Positions 12,820 through 57,379 of a DNA stretch of 64,000 nucleotides are shown here, in pieces. Below the pieces are notes generated by a model. That model ran no database searches. It was given only the letters and a program-made list of their open reading frames with translations, and was not told the DNA's origin. The translations under genes were made by a program, and so were the position numbers. Numbering within the stretch: position 1 is the stretch's first letter; each line of letters starts with the position of its first letter. This DNA is from Hymenobacter negativus (GTDB lineage: Bacteria; Bacteroidota; Bacteroidia; Cytophagales; Hymenobacteraceae), in contig NZ_JAEDAE010000008.1 in the NCBI RefSeq assembly GCF_016056375.1, positions 186,001-250,000 of the forward strand, read 5' to 3'.

Positions 12820-14367
12820 ATGGAATCCGCCCAAAATCAATTGGTTTACGATGTTATCATTTCCGGGGCCGGGCCGGTCGGGCTGCTGCTGGCCTGCGAG
12901 CTGGCCCTGGCCGGCTGCTCCGTGTTGCTCCTGGAAAGAGCCGAAAACCCGCACTCGCCCCTCAAGCAGCTACCGTTTGGAATACGCGGGCTCTCGGCCC
13001 CCACCATTGAAGCGCTTGACCGCCGGGGGCTGCTGCCGGAGCTGGAACTGCACAAGCGCCTGAAGAGCCCCCACCAGCACGCCGGGGAAGGGGCTCGCCG
13101 GCAGGTAGGGCACTTCGCCGGCATTCCTTTTCACGAAGGCGATATCGACTTCACGCAGTGGAAAAATCGCCTGCCCGGCTCGACGCCAACCAGCCTGATT
13201 TCCGAAATGCAGGAGCTGGAAACGGTGCTGGCCCGCCGCGCCGAAACCCTGGGCGTGGTCATCAGACGCGGCCTGGCCCTGACGGGCTTTCAGCAAACCG
13301 CAGATGCGGTGACTGTTCAAGCCGGCGACCATTCCTTTACCGGCCACTGGCTGGTGGGGTGCGATGGCAGCCGCAGTGCGGTGCGCAAGCTGGGCGGGTT
13401 TGATTTTGCCGGCACGGAGCCGGAATTCACCGGTTACACCGTGAAAGCGGACCTCGCCGACCCTGAGAAACTCCGGCCCGGCCGCAACCTGACGCCCAGC
13501 GGCATGTACCTGCAATCGCAGCCCGGCTACCTGATGATGCAGGACTTCGACGGCGGCGCGTTTCACGATGCCGGCCAGCCCATCACGCCCGAACACGTGC
13601 AGGAAGTGCTGCGCCGCATCTCGGGCACCGATGTGACCGTCAGCGCCCTGCACACCGCCACCACCTGGACCGACCGGGCCCGGCAAGCCACCGCCTACCG
13701 CCACGGCCGGGTGCTGCTGGCCGGCGATGCTGCGCACATTCATTCGCCCCTTGGCGGCCAGGGCCTGAACCTGGGGCTGGGCGATGCCATGAACCTGGGC
13801 TGGAAGCTCGCCGCCACCATTCGGGGGCAGGCCCCTGCCGGCCTGTTGGACAGTTACTGCGCCGAACGGCACCCCATTGGGGCGCAGGTGCTGGATTGGT
13901 CGCGCGCCCAGGTGGCTCTCATGAACCCCACCCCGCAGGCCCGCGCCCTGCAGGCCATCGTGCGCGACCTGCTGAATACGCGCGACGGGGCCACCTACTT
14001 CGCCGGCCGGGTGTGGGGCATTGCCACGCAGTACGACTTCGGAGCCGGCCACCCGCTGGCAGGCCGTAGCGCGCCCAACGTTGAGCTCGAAGACGGAACG
14101 ACAATGGGCGAGCTCCTGCACGACGGCCAAGGAGTCCTGCTTGATTTCGATAGAACGGCATCTCTCAAGGCATTGGCCGGCGCCTATAGCAAACAGCTGA
14201 AGTATGTTTCGGGCCGGGCAAAAGACCAGCTAGGCTTACGCGCCGTTTTGGTACGCCCCGACGGTATTGTTGCCTGGGCTTCAGCCGCCGATGAGGCCCT
14301 GGATGGCAACGACTGGCAGCAGGCAGCCGCGCGCTGGTTTGGGGGCCGCGCCGGAGCGGAGCAGTAG
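12820..14367 (+). CDS. FAD-dependent aromatic monooxygenase (PHBH type)
   Basis: A 515-residue class A flavoprotein hydroxylase. The FAD/NADPH motifs are GAGPVGLLLACELALAG (GxGxxG, about 15-31), LVGCDGSRSAVRK (DG motif) and VLLAGDAAHIHSPLGGQGLN (GD motif). The last 90 residues form a thioredoxin-like domain (GVLLDFD..., LVRPDGIVAWAS) found in polyketide-type and rifampicin-type monooxygenases. It would use NAD(P)H and O2 to hydroxylate an aromatic or polyketide compound. Detoxification, in view of the AraC partner, and catabolism are both possible; the substrate cannot be read from sequence. The ATG at 12820 sits just before the first beta strand, as usual for the family. Confidence 0.87.
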   Translation: MESAQNQLVYDVIISGAGPVGLLLACELALAGCSVLLLERAENPHSPLKQLPFGIRGLSAPTIEALDRRGLLPELELHKRLKSPHQHAGEGARRQVGHFAGIPFHEGDIDFTQWKNRLPGSTPTSLISEMQELETVLARRAETLGVVIRRGLALTGFQQTADAVTVQAGDHSFTGHWLVGCDGSRSAVRKLGGFDFAGTEPEFTGYTVKADLADPEKLRPGRNLTPSGMYLQSQPGYLMMQDFDGGAFHDAGQPITPEHVQEVLRRISGTDVTVSALHTATTWTDRARQATAYRHGRVLLAGDAAHIHSPLGGQGLNLGLGDAMNLGWKLAATIRGQAPAGLLDSYCAERHPIGAQVLDWSRAQVALMNPTPQARALQAIVRDLLNTRDGATYFAGRVWGIATQYDFGAGHPLAGRSAPNVELEDGTTMGELLHDGQGVLLDFDRTASLKALAGAYSKQLKYVSGRAKDQLGLRAVLVRPDGIVAWASAADEALDGNDWQQAAARWFGGRAGAEQ

Positions 14368-14439
14368 GCCGCAAGGGCACTGCTTCAGCAAACGGCAGGC
14401 TTGCGGCTGTTAGCACCCAAGGCCTCGCACAACAGGCCG

Positions 14440-14447
14440 TAATTTTG
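14440..14447 (+). promoter_or_regulatory. -7 box immediately upstream of hrpB
   Basis: TAATTTTG, exact match to TAnnTTTG, five bases before the hrpB ATG at 14453. It predicts a leaderless or nearly leaderless mRNA. No good -33 TTG is visible. Confidence 0.5.
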
Positions 14448-14452
14448 GGACG

Positions 14453-17137
14453 ATGCCCAACGCCTTCGTCCTGCCGCCCCTCCCCGACCTGCCCATCATC
14501 GCGGCGCTGCCCAAACTGCGGGCTGCGCTGGCCGCCCACTCCCGCGTGGTGCTGGAAGCGCCGCCCGGCGCGGGCAAAACCACTGTGGTGCCGCTGGAGC
14601 TGCTGGCCGCCGAGTGGCGCAATCCCGACGATAAAATCCTGGTGCTGGAGCCGCGCCAGCTGGCCGTGCGTGGCGCCGCCGCCCGCCTGGCCCAGCTGCT
14701 GGGCGAGCCCGTGGGCCGCACCATCGGCTACCGCGTGCGGCTCGATAGCAATGTGAGCCAGGAAACCCGCGTGGAAGTCATCACCGAAGGCATTCTCACG
14801 CGCATGATTCAGGACGACCCGGCGCTGGAAGGTGTGGCGGCGGTGGTATTTGATGAATTTCATGAGCGGAGCTTGAACGCCGATTTAGGTTTGGCGCTGG
14901 CGCTGGATGCCCAAGCCGTGCTGCGGCCCGAGCTGCGCATCCTGCTAATGAGCGCCACGCTGGAGGCCCGGCGGCTGGGCCAGTGGCTGCCCGCGCCGGT
15001 GGTGTCGTCGGCCGGGTTTCTGTTTCCGATTGAAACGCATTACCTCGACCCGCGCCGAGCTTCCGCCTTGCCCAACAAGCCCGCCGAGCGGCTGGCCGAG
15101 CTGGTGCCCGCACAAGTACGAGCAGCTTTGAACGCCCACCCGCAAGGCGACATCCTGGTTTTCCTGCCCGGCGTGGGCGACTTGCAACGCAGTGCCCGCA
15201 AGCTTCAGGATGCCTTGCCCGACCACGTCGTCCTGCACTTGCTGCACGGCGAATTGCCGCTCGAAGCGCAGGACGCGGCCCTGCGTCCGGTAAGCGGCGG
15301 CCGGCGCAAGGTCATCCTGGCCACCAGCATTGCCGAAACCAGCCTCACCATCGAGGGCGTACGGGTAGTAATTGACGGCGGCTTTGCGCGGGTGCCGCGC
15401 TTTGTGCCGCGCACCGGCTTCACCACCCTCGAAACCGTGCCCGTGGCCCGCGCCGCCGCCGACCAGCGCCGGGGCCGCGCCGGCCGCCTTGCCCCCGGCA
15501 CCTGCTACCGCCTCTGGACCGAAGCCGAGCATCACAACCTGCCGGCCCACCGCCCGCCCGAAATCCACACCGCCGACCTCAGCAGCCTCGCCCTGGAGCT
15601 GGCCCTCTGGGGCGCGGCCGAGCCCACCAGCCTGCGCTGGCTGGACGTGCCGCCAACGGCGGCGTTTGCGCAAGCCACTGAGCTGCTGCTGCGACTGGGA
15701 GCTTTATCAGGGCAGGAGGGTAAGGGAGTAGGAGGGTATGAGGCTTCGAAAGCAGAACCATCACAAATAACTCCTGCCCTCCTACCCTCCCACCCTTCTA
15801 CCCTAATAAAACCCACCCCCCACGGCCGGCAGCTAGCCGTGCTGGGCCTGCCGCCACGCCTGGGCCACCTCGTGGTGCGCGGGCAAGAGTTGGGCCACGG
15901 CTCTGCTGCCGCCTCCTTGGCCGCGCTGCTGGCCGAGCGCGACCTGTTGCGCTGGGCCGCCCCCTCCGACACCCGCCCCGCCCCGCCCGACCTGCGCCTG
16001 CGCCTCGAAGCCCTGGCCAGCGGCCGCCCGCCCTTGCCCGGCCTGGCCCTGCACCACGCCACCCTGCAACGCGTGCGCGACGTGGCCCGCAACCTCACCG
16101 GCCGCCTGGGCAAAACCGCCAAGCCACCAACCCACCAATCCGCTCACCCGCCTGTGGGCCTGCTCACCGCGCTGGCCTACCCCGACCGGTTGGCCCAGCG
16201 CGAAACCCACGACCGCCTGCGCCTTGTGACCGGCCAGCGGGTGAGCCTGAACACCATCGATGTAGACCCACAAGCCACCTTTTTCGCTGTGGCGCACCTG
16301 GCAGGCACAGCCTCGGCCCCGCGTGCTACGCTGGCCGCTCCGCTCGGGCAGGATGAGCTGGAATTAGCCTTCGCCGACCAAATTACGACCACCGACGAGG
16401 TGCGCTACGATGCCACCACCCAACGCGTGACCGGCCGCCGGGTGCGCCGCCTGGGGGCCTTGCTGCTCGAAGAAAAAATTATTGGCCAGCCCGATGCGGT
16501 ACTGGTGGCACGGGCCCTGCTGAATTATTTGCAGGAAGCCGGCGTGAGCAAGCTGAATTGGACGCCCGCCGCCCGCCAGCTGCAGCAGCGGCTGGAGTTT
16601 CTGCGGCAGCACTTCCCAGGTTCTGATGCTGCGGAACCCTGGCCGGCTTTTGACGATGCCACGCTGGCACTGGAGCTGGCCGACTGGCTCGGGCCGCACC
16701 TCGACGGTCTCAAAACCCTCGACCAGGTGCAGCGCCTCGACCTGTATGAACCGCTGCTGGCCCGCCTGCCCGGCGGCTGGAACCAGCGCCAGGAGTTGGA
16801 CCGCCTTGCTCCGGCCGCGCTGGAAGTGCCCAGCGGCTCGCACATCACCTTGGACTACAGCGACCCTGCCGCCCCCGTGCTGGCCGTGAAGCTGCAGGAA
16901 TTATTTGGCTTGACGGAAACGCCCACCGTGGCCGCCGGCCGCGTGCCGCTGCTACTGCACCTGCTCTCGCCGGGCGGCCGCCCGGCGCAGGTAACGCGCG
17001 ATTTGCGCAGCTTCTGGGAGAAGGGCTATTTCGAAGTCCGCAAGGACTTAAAGGGCCGCTACCCCAAGCATCCCTGGCCCGACAAGCCGATGGAGCACAT
17101 TCCGACGCGGCTCACGAAAAAGCGGCTGGGGCAGTAG
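14453..17137 (+). CDS. hrpB: ATP-dependent RNA helicase HrpB
   Basis: An 894-residue DEAH-type helicase. Motif I is EAPPGAGKTT (about residues 35-44), motif II is DEFH in VVFDEFHERS, motif III is MSATLE and motif VI is DQRRGRAGR, followed by HA2/ratchet regions and the HrpB C-terminal domain (FWEKGYFEVRKDLKGRYPKHPWP). HrpB homologues run about 800-850 residues; the extra length here comes partly from a low-complexity insertion at about residues 420-452, encoded by an inverted repeat, and a smaller Pro/His-rich one at about 555-568. The frame is kept through both. Its physiological RNA target is not established for this family. Confidence 0.93.
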   Translation: MPNAFVLPPLPDLPIIAALPKLRAALAAHSRVVLEAPPGAGKTTVVPLELLAAEWRNPDDKILVLEPRQLAVRGAAARLAQLLGEPVGRTIGYRVRLDSNVSQETRVEVITEGILTRMIQDDPALEGVAAVVFDEFHERSLNADLGLALALDAQAVLRPELRILLMSATLEARRLGQWLPAPVVSSAGFLFPIETHYLDPRRASALPNKPAERLAELVPAQVRAALNAHPQGDILVFLPGVGDLQRSARKLQDALPDHVVLHLLHGELPLEAQDAALRPVSGGRRKVILATSIAETSLTIEGVRVVIDGGFARVPRFVPRTGFTTLETVPVARAAADQRRGRAGRLAPGTCYRLWTEAEHHNLPAHRPPEIHTADLSSLALELALWGAAEPTSLRWLDVPPTAAFAQATELLLRLGALSGQEGKGVGGYEASKAEPSQITPALLPSHPSTLIKPTPHGRQLAVLGLPPRLGHLVVRGQELGHGSAAASLAALLAERDLLRWAAPSDTRPAPPDLRLRLEALASGRPPLPGLALHHATLQRVRDVARNLTGRLGKTAKPPTHQSAHPPVGLLTALAYPDRLAQRETHDRLRLVTGQRVSLNTIDVDPQATFFAVAHLAGTASAPRATLAAPLGQDELELAFADQITTTDEVRYDATTQRVTGRRVRRLGALLLEEKIIGQPDAVLVARALLNYLQEAGVSKLNWTPAARQLQQRLEFLRQHFPGSDAAEPWPAFDDATLALELADWLGPHLDGLKTLDQVQRLDLYEPLLARLPGGWNQRQELDRLAPAALEVPSGSHITLDYSDPAAPVLAVKLQELFGLTETPTVAAGRVPLLLHLLSPGGRPAQVTRDLRSFWEKGYFEVRKDLKGRYPKHPWPDKPMEHIPTRLTKKRLGQ
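15710..15803 (+). repeat. IR2: word-repeat inverted repeat inside hrpB
   Basis: Arms 15710-15742 and 15771-15803 pair at 25 of 33 positions, more if G-U pairs are allowed. Each arm is four in-phase copies of an 8-base word close to GGGTAGGA, plus one base. The 28-base loop is AT-richer than the surrounding gene. It encodes a Gly/Lys/Ser/Pro-rich loop between helicase domains and keeps the frame. Confidence 0.8.
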
Positions 17138-17250
17138 CGCAGGGCTGAGTCAACGGCTTTTACCCAGTTGAAGAATTGGCTAAAAAACCATTTCGCCGCC
17201 AAAAAACCGTCACGTAACTTCGTAGAAAATCAAGCTTTTTCCACAGTTAC

Positions 17251-18165
17251 ATGGCTTCTACTGCTACTCCCGAAGCGCCGGTTATTGCCGGCGACCAACT
17301 CACGCCGGGCTGGCTCAAAATTGTTTGGCTTTACCTGATGCTGGTGCCCGCATTGGTGTGGGGCTTTTCCAGTTTATCCGGGCCGCGCAGCCTGGCCTCG
17401 GCCCTGATTACGGTGGTAACGGTAGGCTTCGGGCATTCCATCGGCCTGCACCGCGGCATTATCCACCGCTCGTACCGCTGCGCGCGGTTCACGCGCGGCA
17501 TGCTGGCCTACTTATTTGTGCATACCGGGCTGGGCGGGCCGCTGTCGTGGGTGCGGGTGCACTATTTCCGCGACTACTGGCAGAACCGGCTCGACTGCCC
17601 GGCCTACTTCCGCTACGACCACTCCATCGCGAAGGACTACTACTGGAATCTGCACTTCGCCCTGAAATCGGGCGACATCGGCCGCTACGAAATACCCGAC
17701 GAAGACTTGTACGACCCCTGGCTGGCCTTCCTCGAAAAAACCTGGTATCTGCACGTATTGGCCGCGGCGGGCCTTATCTGGGCCTTTTTCGGATTTGAGG
17801 CGATGATAGTGTGCGTGCCGCTGCGCATCAGCATCACCATTCTGGGGCACTGGTTTGTGGGCTTCATCTCGCACAAGTACGGCTACGCCCGCTACGACAT
17901 CGACGACGCCACCGAGCACGGCTACAACAACTGGGTGCTGGGCGCGCTGTCGTTCGGCGAGGGCTTCCACAACAACCACCACGCCCACCCCAGCTCGGCC
18001 AAAATGAGCACCGAATGGTACGAGCTGGACCTGGGCTGGTACCTGGTGGCCGGCCTGCGTGCCGTGGGCTTGGTGTGGGACGTGCAGGTGGTGGGCCGCG
18101 ACCACACCCAGAAAGCCCGCGCCAAAGAGCGCAGTTTCCGCTGGCGCTGGCCCTGGCAGGACTAG
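17251..18165 (+). CDS. Membrane fatty-acid desaturase
   Basis: A 304-residue integral membrane di-iron enzyme. The His boxes are GHSIGLHRGIIHRSY (about residues 62-76) and FHNNHHAHP (about 236-244), with further His residues near WFVGFISHKYGY. Four membrane segments lie in two pairs, as in acyl-CoA/acyl-lipid delta-9 desaturases. It would place a double bond in a fatty acyl chain with O2 and electrons from a ferredoxin or cytochrome. The spacing of the first box (LHRGIIHRSY) is slightly unlike the classic HRLWAHRSY, so the precise position or acyl carrier is uncertain. The stop codon lies inside the first word of inverted repeat IR3. Confidence 0.87.
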   Translation: MASTATPEAPVIAGDQLTPGWLKIVWLYLMLVPALVWGFSSLSGPRSLASALITVVTVGFGHSIGLHRGIIHRSYRCARFTRGMLAYLFVHTGLGGPLSWVRVHYFRDYWQNRLDCPAYFRYDHSIAKDYYWNLHFALKSGDIGRYEIPDEDLYDPWLAFLEKTWYLHVLAAAGLIWAFFGFEAMIVCVPLRISITILGHWFVGFISHKYGYARYDIDDATEHGYNNWVLGALSFGEGFHNNHHAHPSSAKMSTEWYELDLGWYLVAGLRAVGLVWDVQVVGRDHTQKARAKERSFRWRWPWQD

Positions 18166-18244
18166 CGGACTAGTGGGATAGCGGGTTGGCGAATGGAATC
18201 AGGTGTGCGGATATAGCCTAACCCACCAATCCACTAACCCACCA
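18161..18244. repeat. IR3: word-repeat inverted repeat filling a convergent gap
   Basis: Left arm 18161-18192 is made of 8-base words (ACTAGCGG, ACTAGTGG, GATAGCGG). The right arm 18218-18244, read on the minus strand, has words such as GTTAGTGG and ATTGGTGG. Pairing is imperfect but phased. The first word contains the desaturase TAG, and the right arm ends two bases before the stop codon of the convergent FRG gene. Confidence 0.75.
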
Positions 18245-18245
18245 T

Positions 18246-19088
18246 TTATCGCATCTCATTGTCATCCAAAAAGTTCTTGCCGTCGGCGCGGGGCGAATAG
18301 TGGCGGTGCAGCCAGCGGCTAAGGCCGCCCAAGCCCGGCAGCAGCACCCGCTCGGTGATGTTGGCCTGGTCGAGCTTGTCGCGCACTTCCCACTTGAGGC
18401 GAGCCGGAATGATGATGCGGAAGTACAGCTCCGGGCGGTCGGCCAGCCAGTCGTGCAGCACGCTCTGGGCCGTGCTCATCAAGGAAAACAAGGCGTACTG
18501 GTGCACAATACGCGCGTCGAGGCTGGGCGGCTCCAGAAACAGCACGTAAGGCTCGGCCTGCAGCTCTTCGAGCTCGCGCAGGCTGCTGCTCACGGGTTGC
18601 AGCAGCTCAGAAGTAAACACGTTGGACCCCTCCCCCTGCAGGGCCTGGCGCAGGCGCTGGGGCAGGTGCTCGGCCGCTTTCACGTAGTTCAGCGCCCAAA
18701 TGATGCCGTCTTCGTGGTAGGCGGCCAGGTCGTCGGTGGCGAAATGCAGGGCCACATAAGGTGAGTACGTCCAATCGAGCAGGCGGGTGGGCAGGCCGTG
18801 GTGCTGCGCCAGCGCCAGCCAATCCCAGGTGCTGGTGGTGGCGGTGGGCAGGCTGTTTTCGCGGGCGTACTTGCGGAAGTTGCGCAGCAGGTGGTGCTCC
18901 AGGTTCTGATATTCACCGCCCAGCCGCTGCAAGCTGGTTTCGAGTTGAAAATGGCGCGAGCGGCCGCCCCGGTACACAAACGGCGACCGAAACCGCCCAA
19001 TGCGCGCATCCCAGGTGTTCTGGAACAGCAACCGCTGCAGGTCTTCCCAGGAAGTGGCTTCGTAGTCGTTGTTGGCAGAAAGTGGCAT
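18246..19088 (-). CDS. FRG-domain protein
   Basis: A 280-residue protein with an FRG domain, named for its Phe/Tyr-Arg-Gly motif: FVYRGG (about residues 38-43), TSLQRLG, HHLLRNFRKYA, WDWLALAQHHGLPTRLLDWTYSPYVALHFA (about 100-130) and a downstream EPPSLDARIVHQYALFS block. The HHGLPTRLLDWT segment is the most conserved FRG core. The biochemical role of FRG proteins is not settled; they often occur as sporadic accessory genes. No signal peptide is present. It is bracketed by two unrelated inverted repeats, IR3 at its 3' side and IR4 at its 5' side, and has no obvious operon partner. Confidence 0.85.
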   Translation of the reverse strand: MPLSANNDYEATSWEDLQRLLFQNTWDARIGRFRSPFVYRGGRSRHFQLETSLQRLGGEYQNLEHHLLRNFRKYARENSLPTATTSTWDWLALAQHHGLPTRLLDWTYSPYVALHFATDDLAAYHEDGIIWALNYVKAAEHLPQRLRQALQGEGSNVFTSELLQPVSSSLRELEELQAEPYVLFLEPPSLDARIVHQYALFSLMSTAQSVLHDWLADRPELYFRIIIPARLKWEVRDKLDQANITERVLLPGLGGLSRWLHRHYSPRADGKNFLDDNEMR

Positions 19089-20144: not shown

Positions 20145-20241
20145 GTGTAGAGACGCGACACTTCGCGTCTCGTCGTTGAGCGAGACCGAACGACACCCGC
20201 GCGGCGCAGACAACAAGACGCGAAGTGTCGCGTCTCTACAC
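20145..20241. repeat. IR5: GTAGAGACGC-family inverted repeat
   Basis: Arms 20145-20173 and 20213-20241 match at 28 of 29 positions. Each arm is a hairpin by itself (AGACGCGA, four bases, TCGCGTCT). It lies between the divergent SDR and esterase genes, just upstream of the esterase promoter. It belongs to the same family as IR11. Confidence 0.92.
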
Positions 20242-25344: not shown

Positions 25345-25437
25345 GTTAAGGGTTAAGAGTTAAAAGTTATACGGTTGAATTCGTCGTCTTTGTCATTTCA
25401 ACTGCCAACTCTTAACTCCTAACTTCTAACTCTTAAC
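25345..25437. repeat. IR6: 7-base word inverted repeat between STAS and HATPase genes
   Basis: The right arm (25397-25437, read on the minus strand) has six 7-base words (GTTAAGA, GTTAGAA, GTTAGGA and so on). The left arm (25345-25379) has five of the same type. The family word GTTAAGA recurs in IR16. It begins four bases after the STAS stop codon and ends five bases before the next ATG. Confidence 0.88.
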
Positions 25438-28362: not shown

Positions 28363-28435
28363 GGTGAATGAGCGAATGGCTGAATGGGTGAATGACCAAT
28401 AAACATTCACCCATTCAGCCATTCGCTCATTCACC
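28363..28435. repeat. IR7: perfect 32-bp inverted repeat of an 8-base word
   Basis: Arms 28363-28394 and 28404-28435 are exact reverse complements. Each arm is exactly four 8-base words of the form NNNGAATG (GGTGAATG twice, AGCGAATG, GCTGAATG). The loop is 9 bases. It starts seven bases after the stop codon of the isomerase gene. Confidence 0.95.
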
Positions 28436-42649: not shown

Positions 42650-42745
42650 TGTAGAGACGCATACTTGCGTCTCGCGCCAGAACGGAATCGGCCGCTTGTT
42701 GCAAATTAATTGTTCAAACGGGAGACGCAAATATGCGTCTCTACA
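42650..42745. repeat. IR11: GTAGAGACGC-family inverted repeat between rpsB and tsf
   Basis: Arms 42650-42673 and 42722-42745 match at 23 of 24 positions. Each arm is itself a hairpin (GAGACGCA...TGCGTCTC). Same family as IR5. The right arm ends 18 bp before the tsf ATG. Confidence 0.92.
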
Positions 42746-52101: not shown

Positions 52102-55020
52102 ATGTCGTTGAAATTCTCGCCAGTCGACGTTTTTGAAGCCCGCCACAACGCGCCCGGCACCGATGCCCGGGCGGCGATGCTCCGCACCATCGGCGTGGAC
52201 AGCATCGAGCAGCTCATCGCCGAAACCGTGCCGCCCGCCATTCGCCTGAAACGTGCCCTCGACCTGCCCGCCGCCCTCAGCGAACGGGCTTTTTTGGCGA
52301 AATTTAAGCAGATTGCCGGCCAGAATCAGGTATTCAAATCCTACATCGGCCTCGGCTACCACGACACCACCCTGCCCCCCGTTATCCAGCGCAACATTCT
52401 GGAAAATCCGGGCTGGTACACCGCCTACACGCCTTACCAGGCCGAAATTGCCCAGGGCCGCCTCGAAGCCCTCATCAACTACCAGACGGTAGTAATTGAC
52501 CTCACCGGCCTCGAAATTGCCAACGCCAGCCTGCTGGATGAAGGCACCGCTGCCGCCGAGGCCATGCACATGCTGCACTCGCAGACCAAGAAAAAAGGCG
52601 CCAACCAGTACTTCGTGTCGGAGCAGGTGCTGCCCCAGACCATCGACCTGCTGCGCACCCGCGCCACCCCGGTTGGCATTGAGCTGGTGATTGGCAACCA
52701 CCGCCAGATTGACCTCAGCAACGAAGGCTTCTTCGGCGCGATGGTGCAGTACCCCGCCGCTGATGGCGAGGTGTTCGACTACAAAGACTTCATCGCCCAG
52801 GCACAGAAAAATAACGTGTTTGTGGTGATGGCCGCCGATTTGTTGGCTCTCACGCTGCTCACCTCCCCTGGCGAGTTGGGCGCCGATGTCTGCGTGGGTA
52901 ACTCGCAGCGCTTCGGCGTGCCGATGGGCTACGGCGGCCCACACGCCGGCTTCTTCGCCTGCAAAGACCAGTTCAAGCGCGTGATTCCCGGCCGCCTCAT
53001 CGGCCAGAGCGTGGATGCGGCTGGCAACAAGGCCTACCGTATGGCCCTGCAAACCCGCGAGCAGCACATCCGCCGCGAAAAGGCTACCAGCAACATCTGC
53101 ACCGCGCAGGTGCTGCTGAGCGTGCTGGCCGGCATGTACGCCGTGTACCACGGCCCGCAGCGCCTCCAGCAGTTCGCCACCAACACCCACCTGCTGGCCC
53201 AGACCCTGGAAGCCGGCCTGAAAAAGCTGGGCGTGGAGCAAACCAACGCACACTATTTCGACACGCTGAACCTGCGCCTGGAAAGCGCCGAACTGCAGCA
53301 GGCGTTGAAAAAAGAAGCCGAAGCCGCCCGCCTCAACTTCCGCTATTTCGACGAGGTGCGCGTGGGTATTTCGCTGAACCAGAACACCGAGCTGCACGAT
53401 GTGGCCGACATTCTGGACGTGTTTGCCAAAGTGCTGGGCAAGGAAGCCGACCAGCTGGCCGAAGCCGTAGCAGCCGACGAGCTGCGCGTGCCCGCCAGCC
53501 TCATCCGCAGCAGTGAGTACCTCACGCACCCGGTGTTCAACACGCACCATGCCGAGCACGAGATGCTGCGCTACATGAAGCAGCTCGAAAACAAGGACTT
53601 GAGCTTGGCCCATAGCATGATTGCGCTGGGCTCGTGCACCATGAAGCTGAACGCCACCGCCGAGATGATTCCGGTGACCTGGCCCGAAATCGGCGGCCTC
53701 CACCCCTTCGCTCCCATCGACCAGGCCAAAGGCTACGAGCAGATTTTCAGCGACCTGCAAGCCTGGCTGTGTGAGGTAACCGGCTTCGCGGCCGTGAGCC
53801 TGCAGCCCAACTCCGGCGCGCAGGGTGAGTACGCCGGCCTGCTGGCCATCAAAGGCTACCACGAGGCGCGAGGCGACCACCACCGCAACGTGTCGCTGAT
53901 TCCGGCCTCGGCCCACGGCACCAACCCCGCTTCGGCCGTGATGGCCGGCATGCAGGTAGTGGTGGTAAAAAGCACCGAAGACGGCAACATCGACGTGGCC
54001 GACCTCAAAGCCAAGGCTGCGCAATACGCTGACAACCTGAGCTGCCTGATGGTGACCTACCCCAGCACGCACGGTGTGTACGAGGAAACTATCATCGACA
54101 TCTGCGAAACCATCCACCAGCACGGCGGCCGCGTGTACATGGACGGCGCCAACATGAATGCCCAGGTAGGCCTCACCTCCCCCGCCACCATTGGGGCCGA
54201 TGTGTGCCACCTCAACCTGCACAAAACCTTCTGCATTCCGCACGGCGGCGGCGGCCCCGGCGTTGGCCCCATCGGCGTGGTGGCCGACCTCGTTCCCTAC
54301 CTTCCTGGCCACGCCGTGGTGCCAGTAGAAGGCCGCACCAGCGGCTCGGTTTCGGCTGCGCCGTGGGGCTCGGCCAGCATCCTGCCCATCAGCTACGCCT
54401 ACATTTCGATGATGGGCGGCGATGGCCTGAAGCGCGCCACCGAAACTGCCATCCTCAACGCCAACTACATCAAAGCCCGCCTTGAGCCGCACTACCCGGT
54501 GCTTTACACCGGCAGCCACGGCCGCTGCGCCCACGAAATGATTCTGGAATGCCGCCACTTCAAAAAGGCCGGCATCGAAGTAGAAGACATTGCCAAGCGC
54601 CTGATGGACTACGGTTTCCACGCCCCTACGGTATCATTCCCCGTAGCCGGCACGCTTATGATTGAGCCCACCGAAAGCGAAAGCAAAGCCGAGCTCGACC
54701 GCTTCTGCGACGCCATGATTTCCATCCGCAAGGAAATTGCCGAAGTGGAGGCCGGCCGCGCCGATGCCAAGGAGAACGTGCTCAAGCACGCCCCGCACAC
54801 TGCTGCCACGGTGCTGGTGCACGAGTGGACGCGCCCATACACCCGCGAGCAGGCCGTGTACCCCATGGAGTACGTGCGCGCCAACAAGTTCTGGCCCGCC
54901 GTGGCTCGCATCGACTCAGCCTACGGCGACCGCAACCTGATTTGCAGCTGCACCCCGATGGAGGAATATGCCGACCAACAGGAAGAGCTGGTGCAGGCCG
55001 ATAAAGGCCCGTCTTATTAG
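52102..55020 (+). CDS. gcvP: Glycine dehydrogenase (aminomethyl-transferring), P-protein
   Basis: A 972-residue PLP enzyme of the glycine cleavage system, which decarboxylates glycine and passes the aminomethyl group to lipoylated H protein. It is the fused (single-chain) form: an N-terminal half (about 1-440, [36 protein letters not shown]) and a catalytic C-terminal half. The PLP-binding Lys is in [22 protein letters not shown] (about residue 707). [15 protein letters not shown] and the final [13 protein letters not shown] block are intact. gcvT and gcvH are not in the window. Its stop codon is followed directly by IR16. Confidence 0.98.
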
Positions 55021-55108
55021 GTTAAGAGTTAGCAGTTAAGAGTTAAAAAAAAGCCCGTCTGACAATTCAGACGGGCTTTTTTTTAACTCTTAACTGCTAA
55101 CTCTTAAC
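55021..55108. repeat. IR16: perfect 42-bp palindrome combining GTTAAGA words and a terminator
   Basis: Arms 55021-55062 and 55067-55108 are exact reverse complements with a 4-base loop. The outer part is a run of 7-base words (GTTAAGA, GTTAGCA, GTTAAGA); the inner part is a normal A/T-flanked terminator hairpin around AGCCCGTCTGA. The element starts on the base after the gcvP stop codon and ends on the base before the stop codon of the convergent lipoprotein gene. Confidence 0.96.
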
Positions 55109-55432
55109 TTACTTGCGGTTGCCCCGCTCGTTGCCGCGCTCGCCGAAGCAGCGGCGGTCCATGTAGCCTACTTTAGTTTGACCGTCTTTATCGAGCCGGA
55201 CGCGCACGAAATAGGCGTTGATGGTATCGGTTACCTGCACCTCGTTGCCGGTGGTGGTTTGGGCCAGGATGGCAGACGTTTTTTTCATGCCATCGTACAC
55301 CGGGCAGTCCACGATGGTATTGTGCGCTACGGGGGTACGGTCGGCGGCCGCTTTACCCATTTCGTCGCGCGTGGAGGTGCAGGCGGCAAACAGACTGGAA
55401 ACAGCCAAAAAGAGTAGGGCAGTTCTTTTCAT
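55109..55432 (-). CDS. Small lipoprotein with an SH3-like domain
   Basis: A 107-residue lipoprotein (lipobox SLFAAC, Cys at about residue 18). The mature part resembles a bacterial SH3 domain: TIVDCPVYDGMKKTSAILAQTTTGNEVQVTD, then YFVRVRLDKDGQTKVGYMDRRCF, with the strand spacing of SH3b folds. Two Cys (in DCPVY and DRRCF) could pair. Ligand unknown, possibly cell wall. The ATG at 55432 gives the lipobox; the longer frame to 55480 does not. It is convergent with gcvP. Confidence 0.78.
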   Translation of the reverse strand: MKRTALLFLAVSSLFAACTSTRDEMGKAAADRTPVAHNTIVDCPVYDGMKKTSAILAQTTTGNEVQVTDTINAYFVRVRLDKDGQTKVGYMDRRCFGERGNERGNRK

Positions 55433-57240: not shown

Positions 57241-57379
57241 AATTATGAGTTATAAATTATGAATTATGAGTTGGCAGCAGGGAAGAAGCGGATGCCCAAG
57301 CACAACAAAATTACGAACGAAGTGCTTCGACGCCGGCTCCGGGCGCAAACTCATCATTCATAATTTATAACTCATAGTT
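57241..57379. repeat. IR17: AT-rich 7-base word inverted repeat
   Basis: Arms 57241-57272 and 57348-57379 match at 30 of 32 positions. The word is ATTATGA or GTTATAA, repeated every 7 bases. The left arm begins six bases upstream of the lipA start; the right arm ends two bases before the stop codon of the next gene. Confidence 0.92.
57306..57313 (-). promoter_or_regulatory. -7 box for lipA, inside the IR17 loop
   Basis: TAATTTTG on the minus strand, exact match. It gives a leader of about 70 nt that carries only one arm of IR17. Confidence 0.5.

Follow-up and report, generated by a model that had tools for sequence, protein, structure and literature searches.

How small bacterial palindromes spread without an obvious transposase is an open question, and the hrpB gene of Hymenobacter negativus raises it in an unusual place. 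This gene, located in the stretch of 64,000 nt analysed here (the window), carries an inverted repeat in frame within a conserved helicase. A sequence-only reading of the window had taken the repeat for an insertion domesticated by HrpB. Does the site hold one such insertion, or has it been occupied in turn by different palindromes, and where do these come from? The gene and the parts of the element are as follows.

14453..17137, + strand: hrpB, ATP-dependent helicase HrpB, 894 aa (open reading frame and profile matches; present in 61 of 61 genomes of one search, own genome included)
15713..15808, + strand: in-frame insert, about residues 421-452, absent from empty relatives (site read in 80 genomes)
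15703..15742, + strand: left palindrome arm, degenerate 8-mers of GAGGGTAA type (inverted-repeat search and unit analysis)
15743..15770, no strand: palindrome loop, 28 nt (inverted-repeat search)
15771..15810, + strand: right palindrome arm (inverted-repeat search and RNA fold)

The protein matches the HrpB model TIGR01970 with 906 bits (curated cut-off, 546) and contains the HrpB_C domain (PF08482). The arms of the repeat, 40 nt each and separated by the 28-nt loop, are 78% complementary, and its inverted-repeat score (17.5) exceeds those of all 60 dinucleotide shuffles. The position in frame inside HrpB, as originally proposed, was borne out, and so was the expectation of an RNA hairpin: the region 15690-15830 folds at -56.6 kcal/mol (z = -3.9), a value matched by none of 200 shuffles. 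The site region measures 156 nt versus 66 nt in relatives with an empty site, so that H. negativus has 30 extra residues (about residues 421-452), close to the 31 at residues 420-452 suggested earlier. The insert is in frame and lies in a short turn after the LGAL motif. This turn, which we take to belong to the winged-helix domain, follows the two RecA domains rather than lying between helicase domains, where the sequence-only reading had placed the insert. The site was mapped by sequence onto E. coli HrpB (6eud/6heg), where the equivalent place is the short stretch LGAL-EGERL-SAQG. With respect to the features of MITEs, inverted arms are present and no target-site duplication was seen by eye beside the inserts. 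An Rfam scan of positions 14000-19000 returned nine matches at E<=1, all under the gathering scores; a known Rfam family was thus rejected for the hairpin, the sub-threshold matches being only of the microRNA type that a generic hairpin attracts.

HrpB was located in 118 of 120 genomes, and the site was read in 80 congeneric genomes, namely those most similar to the query and a sample of others (the fetched loci L065, L063 and L093 were left out of the reading). An insert was found in 55 genomes and an empty site in 25. The site region is 66-75 nt long when empty and 105-210 nt when occupied, and the inserts accordingly add about 13-48 residues. All lie between LGAL-type and (K)PTPHGR-type motifs and start and stop at about the same codons across species. 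The retention of the frame is partly built into the reading, in which every insert was taken from a single open frame; in G098, two frames overlap near residue 400. Outside the occupied clade (see below), all 19 congeneric genomes examined at the site are empty. For 77 genomes from other genera of the family, both match pieces were listed in 11; they lie 6-15 nt apart, with no sign of insertion. Elsewhere in the phylum, 26 of the sampled genomes matched at the threshold, and 22 of the 23 pairs with both pieces listed were <=15 nt apart, again with no sign of insertion; in the remaining pair (G377), the second piece begins only at residue 555. Thus, relatives lack the insertion or have a different one, as the sequence-only reading had anticipated (25 of 80 sites empty, 55 occupied by differing inserts), and conservation of the same insertion in distant HrpB proteins, the outcome that would have spoken against it, was not seen in the family and phylum pairs listed.

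The inserts themselves are diverse. Nine classes, assigned by eye, cover 41 of them, and 14 are unclassified.

8-mers GAGGGTAA: 6 inserts
7-mers GAGTTAA: 8 inserts
7-mers CAGTTAG: 3 inserts
7-mers GAATTAA, mixed and including AAATTAA forms: 13 inserts
GGTGATG: 4 inserts
TAATGGGAG: 3 inserts
CCAACCCA-like: 2 inserts
GGGGCTTG: 1 insert
GC-rich palindrome: 1 insert

The GC-rich palindrome, that of L021, has no period of 7 or 8. As an inverted repeat, 38 of the 55 inserts are better than all 60 of their shuffles; the remaining 17 have no such repeat, and we read them as decayed. Decay by sequence loss is illustrated by two sister pairs, L047/L073 and L037/L046, between which 21 and 24 nt of the right arm have been deleted in frame. 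A single fixed unit order per class was not upheld, with unit orders varying among the copies of genome G051.

Would the peptide or the hairpin be kept for what it does? A peptide that benefits HrpB, or a hairpin in the mRNA that sets the pace of ribosomes, would be consistent with the retention of an in-frame insert in 55 of the 61 clade members and with the 38 of 55 inserts that surpass all shuffles as inverted repeats. However, the other 17 inserts lack such a repeat, six members of the clade have no insert, and the peptide, which differs in sequence between species, is nearly unconstrained: pN/pS is 0.67 in the inserts versus 0.04 in the flanking codons, as estimated from small numbers in eight insert pairs (one row used twice) under a protein-guided alignment uncorrected for multiple hits. 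The insert peptide thus looks nearly neutral, and we consider a functional role very unlikely.

To follow the history of the site, we placed the inserts on trees of hrpB. In the DNA tree, built by a quick method with the two variable stretches removed and with 4 outgroup rows, all 55 occupied genomes fall, together with six empty ones, in a single clade with support of 100, and the same genomes again form one group in a protein tree that includes all 19 outside genomes. Presence and absence need 6 changes on the tree, which would be one gain and five losses if the ancestor was occupied; parsimony points to an occupied ancestor of the clade. Occupied L022 and empty L048 are sisters with support of 99. 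Several supported sisters carry inserts of differing class: L020/L068 (99), L021/L024 (95), L064/L078 (100) and L069/L025+L070 (100). Overall, the class changed at least 22 times among the 41 labelled rows, compared with a shuffled mean of 25.5, and 2% of the shuffles were as low. With the 7-mer classes lumped, 12 changes compare with 16.4 in the shuffles, a number reached by 0 of 5000. Since there are fewer changes than after shuffling, part of the insert diversity is inherited. Thus, the class of an insert is partly inherited, more so at the level of 7-mers versus other classes, yet it switches often. A single domesticated insertion was accordingly rejected, given the class differences between sister species and the near lack of constraint on the peptide. 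The word 'domesticated' is also not supported by the 17 of 55 inserts without a hairpin clearly better than shuffles, or by the many losses and changes of class.

We then looked for the palindromes elsewhere in the genome. The hrpB element belongs to a kind of palindromic repeat that is found across the genome and has arms made of degenerate tandem 7- or 8-mers. Searching its own genome with the element gave 17 matches, itself included; most represent a single arm, with several belonging, as arms, to the same palindrome. Three further palindromes of the window serve as examples.

28363..28435, no strand: intergenic palindrome with 8-mer arms, the same kind of element as in hrpB (inverted-repeat and unit analysis)
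55018..55111, no strand: palindrome with 7-mer arms that continue a terminator-like hairpin (inverted-repeat analysis)
57241..57379, no strand: intergenic palindrome with 7-mer arms (inverted-repeat and unit analysis)

Two 400-kb stretches and the window (864 kb of the 5.14-Mb genome), in which 87-91% of the sequence of the stretches is coding, were surveyed with a simple codon-usage gene caller and with score and period thresholds of our choice. They contain 178 inverted repeats above the threshold, only 4 of them in called genes, and the sole period-7/8 palindrome in a called gene is that of hrpB, in agreement with the initial impression that it is the only element of its class within a gene. 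The remaining periodic palindromes mostly have called genes within tens of bases on both sides; a few have a distant neighbour gene, which genes missed by the caller may explain. When 20 kb starting at hrpB were surveyed in each of 20 relatives, 11 of 117 palindromes fell in called genes, 10 of these being in hrpB and one near the start of an open reading frame. Palindromes of these genomes otherwise avoid genes.

At places similar in distance from hrpB to window 28363-28435 (L102:13075, L103:12106, L112:13608, L117:13637, L118:13313 and L119:11857), palindromes of differing classes are found, namely 8-mer, CAGTTAG 7-mer and GTCATGC types, with orthology judged by offset only. At another intergenic place (window 25352-25437; L101:10699, L103:8989, L107:11100, L116:9122), 7-mer palindromes of the TTGAGTG/TTGAATG type occur in many relatives, orthology again being judged by offset only. 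Since this place kept its 7-mer class in many of the relatives examined, replacement is not equally frequent everywhere.

Other palindromes are also common. REP-like palindromes GTCATGCTGAGCG / GTCATCCTGAGCG are abundant in the window (29994, 37217 and 51832) and in relatives, with 54 intergenic cases of the GTCAT class in the 864 kb. The Y1 transposase (PF01797) gave 0 matches in the H. negativus genome, which carries these palindromes, while the control matched in 5 of 14. A RAYT-driven REPIN was therefore rejected, no Y1_Tnp domain having been found in this genome, to which the search for the transposase was confined. Palindromes of the GTAGAGACGC type lie at window positions 20145-20241 and 42650-42745, and 17 intergenic cases of the GAGACG class occur in the 864 kb. 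A perfect 21-bp inverted repeat lies within a gene of the AcrB/AcrD/AcrF family (L130:13869-17081; G000 C11, 195460-195538).

The tandem build of the arms could point to an origin on the spot, in which 7- or 8-mers expand by slippage and fold-back copying makes the second arm, with no dispersal at all. In line with this, a survey cited in PMC4679880 found 7-mers to be the most frequent repeats in the majority of genomes, and slippage was put forward. The two arms also agree best in the true register, at 0.92 versus 0.73-0.74 when shifted by one unit in 20 elements of the H. negativus genome and at 0.89 versus 0.70-0.71 in 25 hrpB inserts, although selection of the elements by complementarity itself favours the true register. 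However, the same units turn up again at many loci elsewhere in the genome and in further species, which purely local slippage would not produce, and L021 carries a GC-rich palindrome with a period of neither 7 nor 8. We consider such local generation very unlikely.

If inserts come from the repeats of the genome, their class might follow the abundance of these repeats. Units of four classes were counted in 120 genomes, with matches within hrpB subtracted. The hrpB class is the relatively most abundant of the four in 16 of 30 genomes (permutation mean 6.5, p = 1.5e-4), or in 15 of 29 without a near-duplicate, and differs from the most abundant one in the other 14 of 30. One-sided rank tests for the four classes gave p values of 0.0001, 0.007, 0.009 and 0.050. 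In phylogenetically independent pairs, the direction was the same in three of the four classes and mixed for GAATTAA; none was significant, several classes having too few pairs. Furthermore, the CAGTTAG-rich genomes G107 (57 units), G065 (56) and G112 (30) are empty at hrpB. The hrpB class is thus tied to genome abundance, but the association is not robust to phylogeny.

We favour, with a probability of roughly 0.6, the reading that the turn is a tolerated landing site, at which palindromes have been replaced in place after an ancestral gain, with decay and losses. The ancestor of the subclade would have gained an in-frame palindrome at the HrpB turn, which would then have become a landing pad where the palindrome was swapped in place many times by other classes from the same genome. 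In some species the palindrome would have decayed, and about five deletions would have brought the site back to near-empty length. The peptide would be a nearly neutral spacer, presumably harmless to the helicase, with the frame and the absence of stops as the main constraints, and an existing palindrome may attract or template the next one. Recombination or template switching from hairpin to hairpin would be possible routes, as would the entry of one palindrome into another with later loss of the old arms.

Two inserts, the only ones of this appearance, bear on the replacement step. L079 has outer 5' and 3' ends in common with L080/L039 and GAGTTAA-type units inside, and L100 has, outside its new hairpin, a 5' stretch like the old arm of L080/L039; judging from these letters, both seem to combine parts of an older palindrome with a newer one, as hybrids would. 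At GAGTTAA loci of genome G051, another palindrome lies between the arms in 4 of the 20 loci listed out of 63 matches (L168, L169, L170 and L177), and in or next to an arm in a fifth (L180). The inner palindromes of these five loci are of the GTCAT type and other classes, and in several the pairing is continuous across both. At 55018-55111, the 7-mer arms run unbroken into a terminator-like hairpin (GCCCGTCTGA ... TCAGACGGGC, with A/T runs), resembling an outward extension of the terminator. The hybrids, the nested G051 loci and the 55018 arms fit replacement within an existing palindrome, and they fit recombination, template switching and insertion alike.

The same occupancy could arise without any step from palindrome to palindrome, if the turn simply tolerates 13-48 extra residues and palindromes that insert at random survive there repeatedly after earlier ones have been deleted. 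The place is short in E. coli HrpB too, six sites inside the clade are empty, the insert boundaries fall at about the same codons, and palindromes elsewhere avoid genes, all of which such independent insertions would accommodate. They sit less well with the 19 of 19 congeneric genomes read outside the clade that are empty and with the listed pairs of other genera, which lack an insert, although empty outsiders also carry repeats (for example, G055 with 7 GAGGGTA and 6 GAATKAR matches); L079 and L100, moreover, seem to retain old ends. We regard independent insertions as unlikely, and serial replacement at a tolerated site as the better account. In a bolder version of replacement, palindromes would serve as templates for each other: a hairpin already in place would be recognised, and another palindrome from that genome would be copied over its interior, with no need of a dedicated transposase. 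This version is speculative and less likely than not. If it holds, the hrpB turn would be a recorder of the palindrome class active in each lineage, and the whole class would be a transposase-free mobile system moving by hairpin-to-hairpin replacement.

To place the hrpB element among known repeats, we compared it with several systems. Palindromic repeats in frame in protein genes are known as the RPE of Rickettsia and the WPE of Wolbachia, and the hrpB palindrome resembles them in lying in frame inside an open reading frame; RPEs are reported to be about 150 bp long and to code for a conserved peptide, with 44 of them counted across unrelated genes in a single species (PMC10969869, PMC4224334). 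Unlike that conserved peptide, the peptides of hrpB inserts of different classes differ. Whereas RPEs occupy many genes in these accounts, here differing palindromes, with arms mostly of tandem 7/8-mers, occupy one site in one gene according to the species, and hrpB held the only period-7/8 palindrome in a called gene in the 864 kb of 5.14 Mb surveyed. REP doublets form mobile hairpins that are described as short, dispersed and mostly intergenic (PMC3116915). The hrpB element belongs to similarly short, dispersed hairpins found mostly between genes, but its arms are periodic, it lies inside a coding gene, and Y1_Tnp was not found in its own genome. The TAACTGA heptamers of Beggiatoaceae, Cyanobacteria and Bacteroidetes are mainly direct repeats upstream of start codons (PMC4679880). 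They share tandem 7-mers with our elements, and the CAGTTAG/CAGTTAA hrpB units of some species are near TCAGTTA, the reverse complement of TAACTGA; the hrpB units, however, form a palindrome within a gene. The H. negativus insert consists of 8-mers of GAGGGTAA type, not TAACTGA 7-mers, and the related CAGTTAG is found in hrpB of three other species. The STRR heptamers and small dispersed repeats of cyanobacteria are similar in that the small repeats sit within arrays of tandem heptamers and within one another. To our knowledge, accounts of them are limited to cyanobacteria and do not include a serial in-frame exchange at a single codon site. Long inverted repeats are also tolerated in coding genes of Nematomorpha mitochondria, where both arms encode conserved protein regions (PMC6649704), whereas the hrpB repeat adds unconserved residues.

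In the literature that we searched on palindromic repeats and on coding insertions in Hymenobacter, the hrpB case is not described, a statement confined to that search. In-frame palindromes are already known from Rickettsia and Wolbachia; the recurrent exchange of palindromes at one codon site looks new. A conserved helicase gene tolerates varied stretches of 13-48 residues at one turn, and because the inserts are of different palindrome kinds, often common in the same genome, they may give a rare view of how repeats spread. One orthologous codon site in dozens of related species provides a record that can be aligned, in which palindromes are gained, replaced, worn down and lost, and on which rival mechanisms are testable.

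The sequence-only reading had also proposed a second repeat-derived insertion in hrpB, from its likeness to the right arm of an intergenic repeat (IR3). The two regions are as follows.

16115..16156, + strand: second stretch (residues 555-568), coding DNA derived from tandem 8-mers, nearly constant in length and without a hairpin (lag-8 identity, lengths in relatives, inverted-partner search)
18171..18236, no strand, intergenic: weak palindrome of 8-mer units, part of IR3, with a unit type like that of the second stretch (17-nt arms, 76% complementary)

The likeness is present: the second stretch contains CCAACCCACCAATCC, which has most letters in common with the right arm of the 18171-18236 repeat, although that repeat is itself weak. 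Two clean insertions in hrpB, however, were rejected. The second stretch varies little in length (residues 546-572 mostly span 27-28 residues in the clade, range 25-32), close relatives that lack the motif, such as L048, have a stretch of about equal length, and no inverted partner was found within 16090-16170. Its 8-mer derivation is nonetheless apparent, with 13 of 60 rows reaching an identity of 0.55 at lag 8 compared with a mean of 0.03 and a maximum of 1 in codon shuffles. This stretch may be an old octamer segment that has been vertically inherited.
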